From positions 1 through 53,520 of the forward strand of contig NZ_VSKK01000007.1 of assembly GCF_008086205.1 (NCBI RefSeq): a stretch of 53,520 nt of DNA. Direction: 5' to 3'. The stretch comes from Bizionia myxarmorum. Its GTDB lineage: Bacteria > Bacteroidota > Bacteroidia > Flavobacteriales > Flavobacteriaceae. How positions within the stretch are numbered: position 1 is the first letter of the stretch; each line of letters opens with the position of its first letter. The position numbers were made by a program, and so were the translations under genes. Positions 11,134-53,342 of this stretch are shown in pieces. The notes beneath the pieces were generated by a model. The model had not been told where the DNA came from, ran no database searches, and was given only the letters and a program-made list of their open reading frames with translations.

Positions 11134-12870
11134 TTAAAAATCTAAACCAAAGGTCTTTTTTAAGACATCAATAGCCGGGTTTTTTTCTTTTAATTTCTCA
11201 AACTGCTCTTCAGTTGTATAGGCATATTGCTTTTCCATTTCCTCATTAATAGTAATGTCTAAATGAATATCAAAATTGTTCAGTTCTTTTCGAATAAATC
11301 CTAAAAGTTCATATTGTTCCCGTTCAACTTCCAATTTATTAGTGGCATTTGGAAATTCTAGTTGAATGGCATTTCCATTTGCTTTAGGAACATCAATGGA
11401 TAAAATAGAAGCTAAATTGAATTTTCCAGTCGCTTCCAATTCTTTAACAAAAACATTCCAAACACTTACTAATTGGTCTTGCGTGAAAGTATCTTTAGGT
11501 AGTTCGGTTTCGTCTACCACCACATCCATTTGTCGGATTTTATGTTCTTTTTTGGTTTTAAGACTTTTTATTGATAAACCCGATGTCGTTTTCCGTTTAG
11601 CGTCTAAAGTTAGAACACGTCTTGAGTCGTCTTGTACAGGTTCAGCAACTTGATTGCTTGTTACTTGTTGTGTAGCTTTAGAAATCTCCGGACTGGCCAC
11701 AGTTGAAGCAGGAGTGGAGGTAATAGCCTTGGTATTTACAGGAATGGGTTTTATGCCAATCTTTTCAAAATAACTCGGCGGAATTATAAACTGTTTAGAA
11801 TTTTTTTTTTCTCCATCGAAAGTGATAGAGGCAAGTTGCATAAGGCAGAGTTCTACCAGCAGACGCTGGTTTCTACTGGACTTGTATTTCAAATCACAAT
11901 CGTTAGCTTTTTCAATACCTTCAAATAAAAAGGCTTGAGATGCTTTTCGGGATTGTTCTAAATATTTGACTTGTGTTTCTTCACCCACTTCCAATAATTC
12001 AACTGTACTTGGATTTTGGCAAACTAGCAAATCCCTGAAGTGCGATGCTAGACCAGCAATATAATGATGGCCATCAAACCCTTTAGCTAAAATACTATTG
12101 AATTGTAATAATAATTCTGGGATTTTATTTTCTAAAATTAAATCAGTGCTTTTAAAATACGTTTCATAATCCAGCACATTTAAATTTTCAGTAACCGCTT
12201 GACGCGTTAAATTTTTCCCTGAAAAACTAACCACACGATCAAAAATGGATAAAGCGTCACGCATGGCGCCATCGGCTTTTTGAGCTATAATATGAAGGGC
12301 ATCATCTTCGGCAGTAATACCTTGCTCTTTGGCAATATATTGTAAGTACGCCTTGGCGTCTTTAACCGTAATACGTTTAAAGTCGAAAATCTGGCAACGC
12401 GATAAAATGGTTGGAATAATTTTATGCTTTTCGGTTGTTGCTAAAATAAAGATGCAATGTTTTGGTGGCTCTTCTAATGTTTTTAAAAACGCATTAAAAG
12501 CAGCTTGAGATAACATGTGGACCTCGTCGATAATATAGACTTTATATTTCCCAACTTGCGGCGGAATACGGACTTGATCCGTTAAATTTCTAATATCATC
12601 TACCGAGTTATTAGAAGCTGCATCGAGTTCAAAAATATTAAAAGCAAAATCTTCATCTTCTTTTTCAGTTCCATCGCTATTAATCATTTTGGCCAAAATA
12701 CGCGCACATGTTGTTTTACCAACACCACGAGGACCTGTAAATAATAAACCTTGAGCTAAATGGTTGTTTTCAATGGCGTTTAATAAAGTATTTGTAATAG
12801 CATGCTGCCCAACAACGTCCTTAAACGTTTGTGGTCTGTATTTGCGCGCTGATACTACAAAGTGTTCCAT
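11134..12870 (-). CDS. dnaX: DNA polymerase III subunit gamma/tau
   Basis: This 578-aa clamp-loader ATPase has Walker A GPRGVGKT at residues 46-53, Walker B IIDEVHML, the SRC sensor motif (PTILSRCQIFDF) and an AAA lid. A Pro/Ser/Thr-rich linker (around 395-420) leads to a C-terminal tau-like region. The usual zinc-binding Cys cluster between Walker A and Walker B is absent: the stretch after KMINSDGTEKEDEDF has no Cys. The gene heads the dnaX-lipoprotein-miaE block. Its promoter and two palindromes lie directly upstream (12876-12947). No obvious A-rich slippery frameshift site was identified. Confidence 0.96.
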   Translation of the reverse strand: MEHFVVSARKYRPQTFKDVVGQHAITNTLLNAIENNHLAQGLLFTGPRGVGKTTCARILAKMINSDGTEKEDEDFAFNIFELDAASNNSVDDIRNLTDQVRIPPQVGKYKVYIIDEVHMLSQAAFNAFLKTLEEPPKHCIFILATTEKHKIIPTILSRCQIFDFKRITVKDAKAYLQYIAKEQGITAEDDALHIIAQKADGAMRDALSIFDRVVSFSGKNLTRQAVTENLNVLDYETYFKSTDLILENKIPELLLQFNSILAKGFDGHHYIAGLASHFRDLLVCQNPSTVELLEVGEETQVKYLEQSRKASQAFLFEGIEKANDCDLKYKSSRNQRLLVELCLMQLASITFDGEKKNSKQFIIPPSYFEKIGIKPIPVNTKAITSTPASTVASPEISKATQQVTSNQVAEPVQDDSRRVLTLDAKRKTTSGLSIKSLKTKKEHKIRQMDVVVDETELPKDTFTQDQLVSVWNVFVKELEATGKFNLASILSIDVPKANGNAIQLEFPNATNKLEVEREQYELLGFIRKELNNFDIHLDITINEEMEKQYAYTTEEQFEKLKEKNPAIDVLKKTFGLDF

Positions 12871-12947: not shown

Positions 12948-13028
12948 GATTTTGAACATAGAATTTAATAGGAGTTATTAACAATAGCCATTGGTATAAT
13001 TAAGATTCTATTCTAACAAAAATAAATT

Positions 13029-13122
13029 ATATTTACAGGATAACGATAACTGAAAATTTCCATATCCTGATTTATTTGCGGGATATGGATAATAAAAGTT
13101 GTTATATAACGAGTTGGCAATA
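13029..13122 (+). repeat. Imperfect hairpin element directly upstream of the 13.1-kb lipoprotein gene
   Basis: A central perfect 8-bp stem (ccatatcc 13060-13067, ggatatgg 13081-13088) is extended by an imperfect outer stem in which ggataacgataac (13038-13050) faces gttgttatataac (13098-13110). The element ends in gttatataac (13101-13110) and gttggcaata (13113-13122), 3 bp before the gene's ATG. Near copies of this end lie elsewhere in the window: inverted at 14342-14370, and at the 52.4-kb element (52411-52432 on the minus strand). Confidence 0.6.
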
Positions 13123-13125
13123 ATT

Positions 13126-14340
13126 ATGAGAGAAACATTTTACATATTAACAGTCATTCTTCTTTTAACATCTTGCAAAGAAAACAAAATAACAATTGAA
13201 AAAATTGATTTTGAAACAAATTATAAATTTTCTTCAGTAATTGAGAATGAGACTTCTAAAGATACAGTTAATTGGAAATATCAAAAATCTGCAACGAGTT
13301 ATGCGACAAAAGGAGACTATAAAAACGCCTTAATTCAGTATGATTTGGGAATGGGAGGAAAAGAAAAAAACTTTTCTAAAACACAAATAGATTCTATAAA
13401 TAATAAGTATAAAAAAATTAATGCTCGAAATTATATTATAGAAAAAGCCAAAGAAAATCAAATAGTAATAATAAACGAAGCTCATCATAATTCGTTTCAT
13501 CGAGTATTTACAAAATCACTTCTTAAAGAGTTGTTCGATAATGGATATACAAATTTAGGACTTGAAGCTTTGACCAATAATGATAGTCTAAATTCAACCC
13601 TCATTAATAGAAAATATCCAATTCAAAAAACAGGATATTATATAAAAGACCCTCAATTTGGGAATTTAGTTAGAGATGCTTTAAATATTGGTTATAATTT
13701 GTTTGCCTATGAGAGTATGGGGAATGGTAGTGGAAAGCCAAGAGAAATTGAGCAAGCTAAAAATATTCAAAAAGTAATCAACTCAAAACCGAATGAAAAA
13801 TTTTTAATTCATTGTGGTTATGACCACGCATTAGAAGGCAATCACGATTATTGGGAAAAAGCTATGGCAAGTAGATTAACTGAATATACAGGAATAAATC
13901 CTTTTACAATAAATCAAACTAAATTTAGTGAAAGAGGAAATTCTGAATTAAATCAACCATTTTTAAAAGCCCTTAACATATCGGAATCTACCATTCTAAT
14001 AGATAAAAACAAAAACCCTTTAAAATATGAACGTGATGAAGCTTACACAGATATTGTCGTGTTTCATCCAAATACCAAATATATTAACAATAGACCTAAT
14101 TGGCTATTTGAAAATGGAAATAAAAATATTTCTATTTCGCTAAATGACATTCAAATTGAATTTCCAGTTATGATTTTAGCATTCAAAAAAGGAGAAGATA
14201 TAAATTTCGCAATTCCAGTTGACATAACAGAGATAGAAAATAAAACAGATAACTGTAATCTTGGTTTGAAAAAAGGAACTTATGAAATTGTAGTTACGAA
14301 TGGAAAACAGTCCTTTAAATTTGAACAGAAAGTAAAATAA
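13126..14340 (+). CDS. Accessory lipoprotein, Tiki/EreA-like catalytic core suspected
   Basis: This 404-aa protein starts at the ATG at 13126, chosen because it opens a lipoprotein signal (MRETFYILTVILLLTSC, Cys at 17). The longer frame from 13099 runs through the flanking repeat. Residues about 55-75 look like one TPR-type helix pair (YATKGDYKNALIQYDLGM). Residues about 105-240 carry VIINEAHHNSFHR, YTNLGLEAL and LIHCGYDHALEGNHDY. The spacing of E/H motifs resembles the broad EreA/ChaN/TraB (Tiki) superfamily, but that is a weak resemblance. The gene is very AT-rich, stands alone and is bracketed by inverted motifs (13101-13122 and 14342-14370), so lateral acquisition is likely. Substrate unknown. 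Confidence 0.7.
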   Translation: MRETFYILTVILLLTSCKENKITIEKIDFETNYKFSSVIENETSKDTVNWKYQKSATSYATKGDYKNALIQYDLGMGGKEKNFSKTQIDSINNKYKKINARNYIIEKAKENQIVIINEAHHNSFHRVFTKSLLKELFDNGYTNLGLEALTNNDSLNSTLINRKYPIQKTGYYIKDPQFGNLVRDALNIGYNLFAYESMGNGSGKPREIEQAKNIQKVINSKPNEKFLIHCGYDHALEGNHDYWEKAMASRLTEYTGINPFTINQTKFSERGNSELNQPFLKALNISESTILIDKNKNPLKYERDEAYTDIVVFHPNTKYINNRPNWLFENGNKNISISLNDIQIEFPVMILAFKKGEDINFAIPVDITEIENKTDNCNLGLKKGTYEIVVTNGKQSFKFEQKVK

Positions 14341-14341
14341 C

Positions 14342-14370
14342 TATTGCCAACATCCGTATATAACATATAG
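14342..14370 (+). repeat. Inverted flanking motif downstream of the 13.1-kb lipoprotein gene
   Basis: tattgccaac (14342-14351) is the exact reverse complement of gttggcaata at 13113-13122. It is followed by gtatataacatatag (14356-14370), which mirrors gttatataac upstream and closely matches gtatataaaacatagc at the far 52.6-kb locus (reverse complement of 52584-52599). It begins 1 bp after the stop codon. Confidence 0.65.
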
Positions 14371-14504
14371 TAATAGATGAACAACACTTTCCAATTTACT
14401 TTTACAAAAATCCAGTTCTCCTATTAATAAGCGTCAAGCAAACTTTTAAAATAAAAGCCATCTTCCTTTAAAAACATAAATTACTTTATTGTAGTTTTAC
14501 GCAC

Positions 14505-14818
14505 AAGTAAATCGCCTTATCGAACCAAACTTGTTTTGGTTAGGAAAGTCCGAACACCGGAGTGCAAACATAGTGGCTAACAGCCACCAGCCGTGAGGTT
14601 AGGAAAAGTGCAACAGAAAGTATGTACAGGTTATGCTGTAGTGAAACCAGGTAAACTCTATGTGGTGCAATGTCATGTATACCAACGTTTGAGCGCGGCA
14701 CGTGCGATTGTTGGAGGGTAGGCAGCTAGAATGTATTGGTAACAATGCATCCAGATAAATGATAAGGGCTTTTTAATTTTTAATTAGAAAGTACAGAATT
14801 CGGCTTATAGATTTGTTT
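14505..14818 (+). ncRNA. rnpB: RNase P RNA (M1 RNA)
   Basis: The conserved core is plain: ggaaagtccgaacaccgg (CR I region) near 14550, gtgcaacagaaagtatgtac (CR II) near 14608, and the 3' part with gagggtaggcagctagaatg, then cagataaatgataagggc and acagaattcggcttat. The ends pair as P1 (aagtaaatc 14505-14513 with gatttgttt 14810-14818). The size of about 314 nt is normal for bacterial class A RNase P RNA, the catalytic RNA that trims the 5' leader of pre-tRNAs. A strong terminator follows immediately. Confidence 0.95.
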
Positions 14819-14824
14819 AAATAA

Positions 14825-51004: not shown

Positions 51005-51143
51005 TTTTTTTGAGTGTTGGATTATTTTGAATGTTGTTGAAACAAATTTAGTGAATAAGAAGCTGATATAAGATTTGGGAGGGTCTTAGTTGGTAGGCTT
51101 GTATTAGCAATTAATTTTGTGGGGTGTTTTGCATAGTTATTAT

Positions 51144-52316
51144 TTAATCCTTATTATCAAGTGTTTCATCAATTAGTGTTAATCCAAACATAATTTCTTT
51201 TGTTAAATCCTTTAAAGTAACCTCTGTATTTCTTTTACTAGTGTTAAATTTTAGATTTATCGGTGGCCAATTCATTATTTCCTTTAACATTTCTGCGGTT
51301 GAATTCATTGCATATTCCATTGAATCTCGAAAAGCTATTGTATTTGATTCAATGTCGTATTCATCAATACCGCTATAAGATTTCAAAGTCAGAAATATAT
51401 CAGATGTTACTTTGCCAACCTCTTTAAGATTTTCAGAAAAATCAGGTAATTCAGAGTTGATTTCATCGTTAAAATCGTCTAATTCTTTAGACAGTCGATT
51501 CACAACTTTTTTTGCTCTTGATAATTTTAGTCTAGTATCTTTAATATTATTTGCTTGATTTATTTCTTCTGTACCTTTATTTAAATTAGTTGTTAGTTTT
51601 TCAAGATATTCTGTCATTTTTGTTAAATTAAGAGTGATTTTATCGAAACACTCATATCCATTTTTATTAATCTCAAAGATGTCTATATCTCCAAAATTAC
51701 CTTTGGTTGAGTTTTCGATTTCATCTATTAATGAGACTATGTTTTGATATTTAACATCTTTTTTAGGTAAAATTATTTCTGTTGAACTTTGATTAAGTTC
51801 TTGTTTATCAATAAATTTATCTTTTATTAAGCTAGATAAATTTAATCGAAATAAAGTCTCAAACTTCTCAATACTTTCAAACTCTTTGTATAGAAGTTTA
51901 TTAGAAAGTTCTTTTTTAAATAACATAACATCATCTAGTTCCGATGTATTTATAGCATTCAAGTTATTAGGTGTAGCAGTTTTAAAGTATATTAATTGTT
52001 GTTTTTCTGGGTTTTTTATTGCTCTATTAATTTCTTCTACAGTTCCTGATTTGTCTCTTTTGGTTGGTGTTCCTAACTTCATCCACAATATTCCAATTAA
52101 TATATCATAATCAATCTGATTATTTATTATTTCTTGTCCATCTTCTCCAACATCAGTGTAGGTGTCTTCGTTCCAGTGAACAATCTGTATTGAGAAACTG
52201 CTTATCTTACCAAAGGTTTTATTAAATTCCTTTACTATTACTTCAATGGAATTTAGTTCGTCTTTGATATCTCCAGGACAAGATATAAATAGATTTATTT
52301 GTTTGATTTCTTTCAA
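51144..52316 (-). CDS. DUF4062/TIR-like N-terminal domain protein, suspected defence or signalling effector
   Basis: This 390-aa protein has an N-terminal domain (residues 1-115) with the pattern NLFISCPGDIKDELNSIEVI, IQIVHWNEDTYTDVGEDGQE, NNQIDYDILIGILWMKLGTP and SGTVEEINRAI. This is the layout of DUF4062-type TIR-like domains, which are found as effectors in STAND NTPases and antiphage systems. Residues about 175-390 are mostly helical with coiled-coil character (EYLEKLTTNLNKGTEEINQA, KVVNRLSKELDDFNDEINSE), possibly for oligomerisation or sensing. There is no NTPase domain and no signal peptide. The gene is AT-rich, follows a hairpin element on its 5' side and neighbours an AbiC-like gene. 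Enzymatic activity is unproven. Confidence 0.7.
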   Translation of the reverse strand: MKEIKQINLFISCPGDIKDELNSIEVIVKEFNKTFGKISSFSIQIVHWNEDTYTDVGEDGQEIINNQIDYDILIGILWMKLGTPTKRDKSGTVEEINRAIKNPEKQQLIYFKTATPNNLNAINTSELDDVMLFKKELSNKLLYKEFESIEKFETLFRLNLSSLIKDKFIDKQELNQSSTEIILPKKDVKYQNIVSLIDEIENSTKGNFGDIDIFEINKNGYECFDKITLNLTKMTEYLEKLTTNLNKGTEEINQANNIKDTRLKLSRAKKVVNRLSKELDDFNDEINSELPDFSENLKEVGKVTSDIFLTLKSYSGIDEYDIESNTIAFRDSMEYAMNSTAEMLKEIMNWPPINLKFNTSKRNTEVTLKDLTKEIMFGLTLIDETLDNKD

Positions 52317-52415
52317 TTACTATTTCAAGTTTGAATTAATATTAAATTTTAGTTTTCTTATTTGTAAAATGTACTTTTGAAATATGTCTTGTTGGGTTTG
52401 CTGTGTTAATTATTT

Positions 52416-52610
52416 CCAACGTCTCGTATATGAAACGTAGCGTGTAAAAAGACGTTATCGTTTCGGATTATACACGAGCCGAATTTTTATTTTTTATGTT
52501 TAACTTTTATTTTCTAAATATACAAAAATAAAAATTTGGCGAACTTAATAAAGAAGCGAAAACCTCTTGTAAAGCCTGTTTTAGCTATGTTTTATATACA
52601 TTGTTGCCAG
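52416..52610. repeat. 195-bp hairpin-forming intergenic element
   Basis: Three nested or adjacent stems are visible. The outer arm gtatatgaaacgtagc (52426-52441) faces gctatgttttatatac (52584-52599), 14 of 16 pairs, and ccaac (52416-52420) faces gttgcc (52603-52608). An inner side hairpin is cgtgta (52441-52446)/tacacg (52471-52476). The core stem pairs 52478-52494 (gccgaatttttattttt) with 52524-52540, 16 of 17 pairs. It lies between the AbiC-like and DUF4062-like genes. Its ends resemble those around the 13.1-kb lipoprotein gene. Confidence 0.7.
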
Positions 52611-52617
52611 CTGTGCT

Positions 52618-53295
52618 TTATCCTAAATTTGATTGTATGTTATTTATTAATTCTATCAATTTAAATGGTATTCCGTTATGTTTCTCGCCACAAACCGAAC
52701 AAGGTGCTGCTACAGATTCAAATGACACGTGAGGTAACACAAATGATTCTAAATGAAAATGAATTAATTCTCTGAAATATTCTTTATCCTCAATTTCAAT
52801 ATCAGCTTTATTGACTTGTTTTATAAACATATTTTCCAATCTAAATATGGCATTTAGTTCAGCAATTTTTCCCTTATCAAAAATTGAATCGTCGTGAGCT
52901 ATTTTTCTTTCCATTTTTGAAAGTTCAGCTAAAATTTTTATTATACCACCATTTCCGTTAGACTTTGTGTATTCAAAATTATCTATAGCTTGAAGAAAAT
53001 ATTTATATAAATCTGAAATGTAACTTAACTTTCTTTTAGTCCTTTCATCTGCTTTTTGTTCGGTTATCTGTCCTTGAATTATTTCGTTTGCATTGATTTG
53101 TGCTTTAAGTGCTAAATAAACTAATATCGCACCAATAATTCCAGTTATTGGCGCCGTAATTCCTCCAATAGTATCTCCAATTTGCCCAGTATTAGTAAAT
53201 GAGACTATTCCGTATTGAGTAAATATTAATGGCGCTAATAAAATCAATGTGATTCCAAGAATTAATATAAAAAATGCTAATCTTGATAATTTCAT
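52618..53295 (-). CDS. AbiC-like phage abortive infection membrane protein
   Basis: This 225-aa protein has two N-terminal membrane helices (residues about 5-27 and 42-64) separated by FTNTGQIGDTIGGITAPITG, followed by ALKAQINANEIIQGQITEQK. That order (two helices with a GxIGD-type loop, then a charged helical cytoplasmic part) is characteristic of the putative AbiC family (putAbiC), proteins linked to phage abortive infection. A CSVCGEKH zinc-ribbon-like remnant sits near residues 202-209. It is bracketed by inverted motifs (52584-52610 and 53316-53342) and lies next to a tRNA-like 3' end. Phage resistance is inference from family and context. Confidence 0.72.
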   Translation of the reverse strand: MKLSRLAFFILILGITLILLAPLIFTQYGIVSFTNTGQIGDTIGGITAPITGIIGAILVYLALKAQINANEIIQGQITEQKADERTKRKLSYISDLYKYFLQAIDNFEYTKSNGNGGIIKILAELSKMERKIAHDDSIFDKGKIAELNAIFRLENMFIKQVNKADIEIEDKEYFRELIHFHLESFVLPHVSFESVAAPCSVCGEKHNGIPFKLIELINNIQSNLG

Positions 53296-53315
53296 TCTAT
53301 CTCATATTTTTTTTT

Positions 53316-53342
53316 GCATTACTGGCAACATTTATATTATTA
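53316..53342 (-). repeat. Inverted flanking motif upstream of the AbiC-like gene
   Basis: The + strand reads gcattactggcaaca then tttatatt, about 20 bp upstream of the ATG at 53295. On the minus strand this is atataaatgttgccagtaat, matching the layout atataacgagttggcaataa upstream of the 13.1-kb lipoprotein. Its partner is gttgccagctgtgc (52603-52616) at the other end of the gene. Confidence 0.55.

Follow-up and report, generated by a model that had tools for sequence, protein, structure and literature searches.

Gene cassettes of a putative integron-like system in Bizionia myxarmorum and other Flavobacteriaceae

Introduction

Among the closest described systems are the chromosomal integrons of the Vibrio type, such as the Vibrio super-integrons, in which a tyrosine recombinase gene leads an array of cassettes that share one strand and carry structured attC sites. 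The consensus of the integron R box is GTTRRRY. Tyrosine recombinases are expected to have six catalytic residues (R, K, H, R, H, and Y), and the housekeeping Xer proteins among them act at dif. We analyzed 53,520 nucleotides of Bizionia myxarmorum (contig NZ_VSKK01000007.1; the window hereafter is this whole stretch), in which a preliminary description had noted that three genes, labeled lipoprotein, AbiC-like, and DUF4062-like, share flanking inverted motifs. It had read them as passengers of one family of hairpin-ended cassettes or gene-carrying miniature elements, possibly moved in trans by a recombinase encoded elsewhere. With a probability of roughly 0.86, we consider the three genes to be cassettes of a flavobacterial integron-like system.

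An additional IntI domain is named as defining for integron integrases in one paper (PMC9668308), and one attI per integron is given in another (PMC3607928). For Bacteroidetes proper, a survey of complete genomes names just one integron that is complete, that of Salinibacter ruber (PMC9024848).

Results

Arrays of attC-like sites

In the complete genome of a congener (G002), 34 sites of 121–190 bases each lie on one strand (34/34) over ~36 kb (2217029–2252800), directly 3′ of a 388-codon tyrosine recombinase gene that shares its strand with most cassette genes. Read in gene orientation, these sites start with AAC-A.C-GTATA or a near variant and end in TATAC-N4-6-CGTT. Another genome (G129) holds 97 sites, again all on one strand (97/97), in ~78 kb downstream of a recombinase, and in both genomes units of gene plus site form the one-strand array of an integron. 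Where an interval has an open reading frame (ORF) of at least 60 codons, the longest is oriented with the cassettes in 24/27 intervals of G002 and 51/62 of G129. The motifs are not placed at random with respect to genes, an outcome that the preliminary description had named as refuting its reading. Two cassettes of the G002 array (L042/L043), whose ORFs have 264 and 321 codons, are present twice each.

A covariance model and alignment (R1) were built from 28 of the shorter G002 sites. Across these, the nine-pair stem is paired in 97.6% of cells, with both partners altered in 41 cells, and its covariation score was matched by none of 500 shuffles. We then surveyed 199 genomes, an even draw from a larger group with nearly one genome per genus and B. 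myxarmorum included, whose family is taken as Flavobacteriaceae from named relatives. R1 sites (E ≤ 1e-6) were detected in 171/199 genomes; at most 16 candidates were scored per genome, so that counts per genome are lower bounds. Among 20 listed of the 28 R1-negative genomes, 14 are smaller than 2 Mb. The B. myxarmorum genome itself (G000; 3.36 Mb in 19 contigs, the window being contig C19) gave 39 R1 matches at E ≤ 1 and 35 at E ≤ 0.01, including one at 52408–52615 of the window. When another attC-like copy from this genome served as the query, matches were obtained in 11 of 31 genomes (its own included), with one-strand clusters in several. At gathering scores, Rfam returned rnpB alone for the window and no family for the sites, and nine site loci scanned at E ≤ 1 yielded one microRNA-family match (E = 0.15), taken as chance.

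Paired barcodes at cassette ends

Within a cassette, the nine bases that follow the initial GTT are complementary to the nine that precede the terminal AAC. For 33 cassettes of G002 the match was 6.8/9, compared with 3.5/9 for same-site ends and 3.2/9 for other pairs, and the observed total was reached in 0 of 10,000 permutations. A second set (137 of 163 rows, with weak, partial, or cut rows omitted; AAC at the expected place in 126 and GTT in 129) gave 6.73/9 over 78 cassettes against 3.24 for same-site ends, the best of 5,000 shuffles reaching 3.92. A third set from named genomes (78 of 95 rows, with upstream, short, or cut rows omitted) gave 7.16/9 over 50 cassettes, with same-site ends at 3.32 and the best of 5,000 shuffles at 4.14. 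The commonest end pattern was GTT-NNNNNN-AAT ... ACT-NNNNNN-AAC, with 88 distinct six-base barcodes among 163 starts. The GTTRRRY consensus was fitted by 18 of 163 R′ ends, i.e., that core is not conserved.

Pairing across the cassette is the expected consequence of insertion at G^TT, because such insertion would separate an attC into two halves, one of them being the start of the cassette that carries the other at its end. The geometry is that of attC sites: the R″ that follows a gene pairs with the R′ that precedes it, and the junction is GTT. Bottom-strand hairpins were predicted at a mean of −27.3 kcal/mol in the circle form, −21.9 kcal/mol in place, and −21.6 kcal/mol with a random partner; the circle form was more stable than the form in place in 30 of 33 cases, as stable in 2, and less stable in 1. 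The paired six-base barcodes allow the movements of single cassettes to be traced from sequence.

The recombinase

Searches by sequence and by predicted fold placed the catalytic half of the G002 recombinase nearest to the solved structures of XerA and archaeal Xer (4a8e, 5hxy), followed by the integron integrase 2a3v. The structure model had a mean predicted local distance difference test score of 85 and a predicted template modeling score of 0.63. Between the aligned blocks there are 19 residues in the recombinase and 62 in 2a3v, leaving ~43 residues of the integron integrase absent. The recombinase scored 203 of the 265 bits needed for the "integron integrase" profile TIGR02249 and 216 of 220 for NF040815 (NCBIfam), and the TIGR02249 matches of array recombinases were split at profile positions ~180–239. 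In 12 aligned recombinases there is no IntI-type insertion, a common N-terminal region of ~90 residues is folded in the model, and the six catalytic residues are invariant (12/12). By comparison with 2a3v and TIGR02249, the array recombinase thus lacks the additional domain of the IntI family.

Relatives of the G002 recombinase (E ≤ 1e-60) occur in 77/199 genomes of the family. We examined 80 loci in named genomes, chosen by the recombinase alone (flavobacteria such as Winogradskyella, Bizionia, Mesonia, Psychroflexus, and Polaribacter; also Pontibacter, Rufibacter, and others). At least 1 kb of downstream DNA was available at 55, and 32 of these had an R1 match there (E ≤ 0.01, some weak). 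The 95 site matches at recombinase loci were strongly oriented: 90 were downstream on the same strand, 2 upstream on the same strand, and 3 on the other strand. A contig end lay less than 1 kb behind the recombinase at 25/80 loci and less than 1 kb in front at 1/80 (L244), presumably because repeats break assemblies.

None of the 11 PF00589 matches in the B. myxarmorum genome lies on contig C19, in keeping with the preliminary description, which had found no recombinase gene in the window. Its suggestion of a recombinase elsewhere, which is probable, gained a candidate in the gene at G000:C14:219362-220489. Two R1 sites lie between this gene and the end of its contig, and it may be the mover, in which case it would act in trans. 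This gene belongs to a second recombinase type (34–37% identical) that also heads arrays, the other instance being G184:C1 near 2,592,000; G184 holds both types. In B. myxarmorum, this second type has a different candidate attI.

attI-like sites

The attI-like sites share a sequence that ends in TATATAACGAG-TT or a near variant, beyond which the sequence is cassette-specific. An nhmmer profile made from six seed copies found 28 such places in the 63 sequences searched. Because these hits include the 6 seeds and 19 in loci picked for similarity to the window site, they depict what follows attI-like sites and not how frequent such sites are. The attI-like sequence is directly 3′ of a recombinase gene at L042, L161, L204, L205, and, weakly, L167 (E = 0.0066), i.e., an attI-like site adjoins the recombinase gene as an attI does in integrons. 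At L042 (G002:C1:2215278-2216444), it overlaps the last codons of the gene. No member of the recombinase family was found in the stretch examined for the other 23 of 28 hits, and G184 and G093 have six attI-like sites each, in contrast to the one attI of an integron.

Within 5 kb of the attI-like sites, an attC-like site was found downstream on the same strand for 24/27, upstream for 2/27, and on the opposite strand for 0/27; L042, outside these 27, heads the G002 array. The sites with no downstream attC-like site were that of the window (which has a half-site), L186 (which has a matching barcode end but lacks a match to R1), and L170. In 21 of 23 scorable cases, the barcode that begins behind the attI-like site agreed with the R″ of the first attC-like site at 6 or more of 9 positions. 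By eye, the stand-alone sites L170 and L177 seem to retain a few recombinase codons, a hint that some stand-alone attI-like sites may be integrons whose recombinase was lost.

The locus between dnaX and rnpB

The motifs quoted in the preliminary description were found where it had placed them in both regions of the window, and they do not occur by chance. At the lipoprotein gene, GTTGGCAATAA lies on the 5′ side at 13113 (+) and CTATTGCCAAC on the 3′ side at 14341–14351. The shared flanks are ends of predicted recombination sites, and the two sides of this gene are not alike: the 5′ side is attI-like, and the 3′ side is half of an attC-like site. The attI-like site (13025–13115, +) has no adjoining recombinase gene, and its presumed G^TT crossover is at 13113–13115. 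Over 99 bases, it shares 83% identity with the sequence directly 3′ of the G002 recombinase gene. It matched the attI-like profile at E = 1.3e-26, while being one of that profile's own seeds, and the stretch 5′ of the gene has two more copies in the genome. Cassette 1 (13114–14351, +) consists of TTGGCAATAATT, the gene at 13126–14340, and ACTATTGCCAAC, with inverted barcodes at its ends. The cassette locus then closes with the 5′ half of an attC-like site (AACATCCGTATATAACATATAG; 14349–14371, +), whose 3′ half is missing. Its left neighbor is a dnaX-like gene (11134–12870, −), named by content, whose protein has an 89% identical counterpart beside the attI-like site and array of G002, and its right neighbor is rnpB (RNase P RNA; 14504–14823, +; Rfam RF00010, 191.8 bits). 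The cassette 1 protein, lipoprotein-like by its earlier label, matched no family in Pfam, PADLOC, or NCBIfam; the best sub-threshold Pfam matches were at E = 0.011 and 0.013. From these ends, the lipoprotein gene is a predicted single cassette at a stand-alone attI-like site between dnaX and rnpB.

Occupancy of the dnaX–rnpB locus varies among relatives. B. myxarmorum has one cassette there; G003 has the attI-like site, a cassette, a complete attC-like site, a second cassette, and a half-site; G002 has the attI-like site and ~30 kb that extend to rnpB and contain numerous R1 sites; G001 has the attI-like site, plus sites on two contig ends; and G184, from another genus, has the attI-like site and ~2 kb. 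In G004, G005, G093, G090, and G015 the locus is empty, with the flank matches 48–130 bases apart. The preliminary description had called for a look at empty sites in close strains, and empty, one-cassette, two-cassette, and ~30-kb states now stand at one locus. The attI-like site and cassettes are present together or absent together, and the content is different in every occupied genome. Since the empty loci also lack the attI-like site, this is presence or absence of a whole unit and not a clean single insertion.

Two further predicted cassettes

The second region of the window reads on the minus strand. GTTGCCAG at 53329 (−) lies 5′ of the gene at 52618–53295 and CTGGCAAC at ~52603–52610 (−) lies 3′ of it; the third end of the preliminary description, GTTGGAAATAA, is at 52420 (−). 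That end is not separate: together with the 3′ end of the AbiC-like gene it makes the two ends of one attC-like site of the long type, ~210 bases (52409–52618, −; R1 E = 8.7e-8), with a predicted long hairpin of −58 kcal/mol. Seven more places in the genome match the stretch 52400–52640, most of them partially and the weakest probably by chance; copies L005 and L007 look degenerate.

This site joins cassettes 2 and 3, whose end barcodes were scored by eye. The gene part of cassette 2 (52606–53329, −) runs from GTTGCCAGTAAT through the gene at 52618–53295 (225 aa) to CTGGCAAC, with 6/9 barcode positions matching. Its AbiC label found no support in Pfam to E = 10 or in PADLOC and NCBIfam to E = 1. 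The gene part of cassette 3 (51120–52420, −) runs from GTTGGAAATAAT through the gene at 51144–52316 to a degenerate end, and its barcodes no longer match (4/9). The DUF4062 label of its protein is weak in Pfam (E = 0.12); the protein instead matches the PADLOC candidate defense family PDC-S60 (N-terminal part; E = 1.7e-35), with a weak match to ZorA_3. A degenerate attC-like site closes cassette 3 (51020–51140, −; partial R1 match at 51020–51116, E = 0.0019; R″ side by eye). Judged by these ends, two more predicted cassettes hold the AbiC-like and DUF4062-like genes and are joined by one attC-like hairpin. The last ~140 bases of the contig (53380–53520) are an A-run and unrelated sequence (by eye), unlike the rest of the genome, and are probably an assembly or adaptor artifact at a break inside the cassette array.

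Cassette cargo and possible spread

Cargo was scanned in 71 of 88 candidate ORFs of G002 and G129, those omitted being mostly opposite-strand, very short, or duplicate ORFs. The 71 candidate cassette proteins matched 40 Pfam families, where all family labels are names by similarity; among the 25 families listed were ParE- and Gp49-type toxins, helix-turn-helix proteins, Fic, the TIR protein ThsB of Thoeris, PIN, KilA-N, and cation efflux. The PADLOC matches listed (25 of 55) included ThsB, SoFic, PD-Lambda-5_A, PD-Lambda-2_B, and PDC-S22. Matches to rve are probably insertion sequences.

In a phage collection, neither the recombinase (tblastn, E ≤ 1e-40) nor a single query site found a match. 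With one query site, attC-like matches were found in four plasmid records, two from Tenacibaculum finnmarkense, one from Persicobacter, and one from Flagellimonas (CP116298, CP116296, NZ_AP025294, and NZ_CP092416), and plasmids are a possible route of spread. Recombinase matches on plasmids came from 63 records, all below 60% identity and 49 of them Acinetobacter.

Discussion

A putative integron variant

The site families, the order of the arrays, the pairing of cassette ends, the covarying stem, the recombinase at the array head, the scattered attI-like sites, and their presence or absence in relatives are seen in the sequences, and the geometry is strongly supported. We interpret it as follows. 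A cassette would usually be one gene plus an attC-like hairpin of ~120–210 bases, with inverted barcodes at its ends. A relative of XerA and IntI among the tyrosine recombinases would excise it as a circle by a G^TT crossover, and the circle would bring both barcodes together, so that one strand could fold into a single-stranded attC hairpin. The folded circle would then be inserted at the G^TT of an attI-like site, either beside the recombinase gene or, in trans, at a stand-alone site. The site between dnaX and rnpB in the window would be one such landing site, where arrays differ from strain to strain. Catalysis, the single-stranded substrate, the choice of strand, and action in trans are the inferred parts of this scheme. 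The core of the earlier reading is upheld, in that the three genes of the window are passengers of one cassette family. The units are not the miniature elements first proposed, being head-to-tail cassettes, usually of one gene and one attC-like hairpin, and one of the ends first described is attI-like and not a cassette hairpin.

Several observations weigh against this interpretation. No R1 match was found at 23 of the 55 recombinase loci with enough downstream DNA, and no recognizable attC-like site follows the attI-like hit at L170. Intervals with no ORF of at least 60 codons make up 6/33 in G002 and 34/96 in G129. RNAalifold gave a weak consensus for the 28 sites (−2.4 kcal/mol, nine pairs), and two of five covariation measures, which count pairs or pair types, fell within the shuffles (289/500 and 362/500). 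In the draft genome G003, no such recombinase was found despite 67 R1 matches. The B. myxarmorum genome has one match to the G002 recombinase at E ≤ 1e-60, a relative of 35–37%, and the sequence behind this gene differs from the attI-like sequence of the window. As the C14 type is distant, it may serve the window site, or another recombinase absent from the draft assembly may do so, or the site may at present have no recombinase. Cassette 1 has half an attC-like site alone at its 3′ end and may for that reason be locked in. A similar truncated attC half lies by rnpB in both B. myxarmorum and G003 (C22 ~665,600, L174), next to unlike last cassettes and barcodes, and this shared terminal half-site is not explained by simple integron geometry. 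The similarity between the two half-sites sets in near AAC, as would be expected if cassettes could be exchanged at their distal end too.

Alternative explanations

The alternative that survives best, with a small but real chance, is that the system has already been described for Bacteroidota in subscription papers or preprints. Bacteroidota are counted among the phyla with integrons in PMC8618304, and the S. ruber integron is reported as complete in PMC9024848. Yet the open full-text literature, as judged from listings and abstracts, contained no description of such arrays in Flavobacteriaceae, subscription papers and preprints lying outside its scope. In one report, IntegronFinder detected no integrons in a Tenacibaculum (PMC10013915), a genome in which the presence of the present sites was not checked.

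It is improbable that the system is an ordinary integron with a canonical IntI, of which the window cassettes would be remnants in clusters of attC sites lacking integron integrases (CALIN). This would account for the overall geometry (array, attI-like and attC-like sites, G^TT) and for the TIGR02249 score of 203 bits, although that score is below the cut-off. The IntI insertion is also not fully conserved in an integron-like subgroup of tyrosine recombinases, according to a survey of these enzymes (PMC8138268). The recombinase nevertheless has ~43 residues fewer than 2a3v. A canonical IntI was likewise rejected as the hidden recombinase, with TIGR02249 over its cut-off in 0/16 genomes, a result obtained without a positive control, as 14 control genomes also gave none.

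Slightly less probable still is the idea that static repeats, such as terminators, lie between accessory genes that are shuffled by homologous recombination alone. The sites are alike enough for such exchange, G002 has duplicate cassettes, and the half-site common to B. myxarmorum and G003 adjoins unlike last cassettes. Homologous recombination, however, would not keep the ends of a cassette complementary while the outer ends of a site differ, nor would it lead to arrays that are headed by a recombinase gene with an attI-like site.

Elements with genes between hairpin ends, moved by a transposase in the manner of miniature inverted-repeat transposable elements or repetitive extragenic palindromic elements, are the least probable: long imperfect hairpins are indeed scattered in the genome, but hairpin ends do not bound each unit, the sites are common to neighboring genes, head to tail and on a single strand behind a tyrosine recombinase, complementarity runs across the ends of a cassette and not between the outer ends of a site in place, attI-like sites stand at the heads, and no transposase matching the hairpin ends was seen, no search having been aimed at one.

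Significance and comparison with known systems

An integron-like cassette system thus remains our preferred interpretation. Evenly poised, in our judgment, is the broader proposal that a second kind of integron operates in Flavobacteriaceae and probably across much of Bacteroidota. In it, a Xer-type recombinase without the IntI domain would recognize folded cassette ends by their structure and by a paired barcode particular to each cassette, with no fixed core sequence, and would serve a network of several chromosomal attI sites in trans, so that one genome would maintain many arrays, each exchanged independently. We use the label of an integron variant because the system would work like an integron but has no IntI domain, GTTRRRY core, or single attI. 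Integrons have been described as rare in Bacteroidota, against which the presence of sites in 171/199 genomes suggests that the platform may be common. Gene capture on a nearly family-wide scale, maybe missed by standard detection, would change the view of how accessory and defense genes move in a major marine group. It would also pose a mechanistic question, as the flavobacterial recombinase lacks a domain regarded as necessary for integron recombination.

The likeness to Vibrio-type chromosomal integrons is extensive: both have a one-strand array behind a tyrosine recombinase, structured attC or attC-like sites, a G^TT junction, and cassette starts that pair with their own ends, as well as duplicate cassettes and a cargo that includes toxin-antitoxin and defense genes. 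Unlike its Vibrio counterpart, the flavobacterial recombinase has an extra N-terminal domain and no IntI-specific domain, the core is GTT plus a variable barcode instead of GTTRRRY, and several attI-like sites occur per genome, most with no adjoining recombinase. Treponema integrons also differ, having an intI of the integron family and one attI per integron. With XerA and other Xer proteins, the flavobacterial recombinases share the nearest solved structures (4a8e and 5hxy) and the NF040815 score of 216 of 220 bits, but they head cassette arrays and bear the N-terminal extension of ~90 residues. The window cassettes, on a contig with no recombinase match, fit the definition of CALIN, whereas stand-alone clusters in flavobacteria are often headed by an attI-like site of their own.

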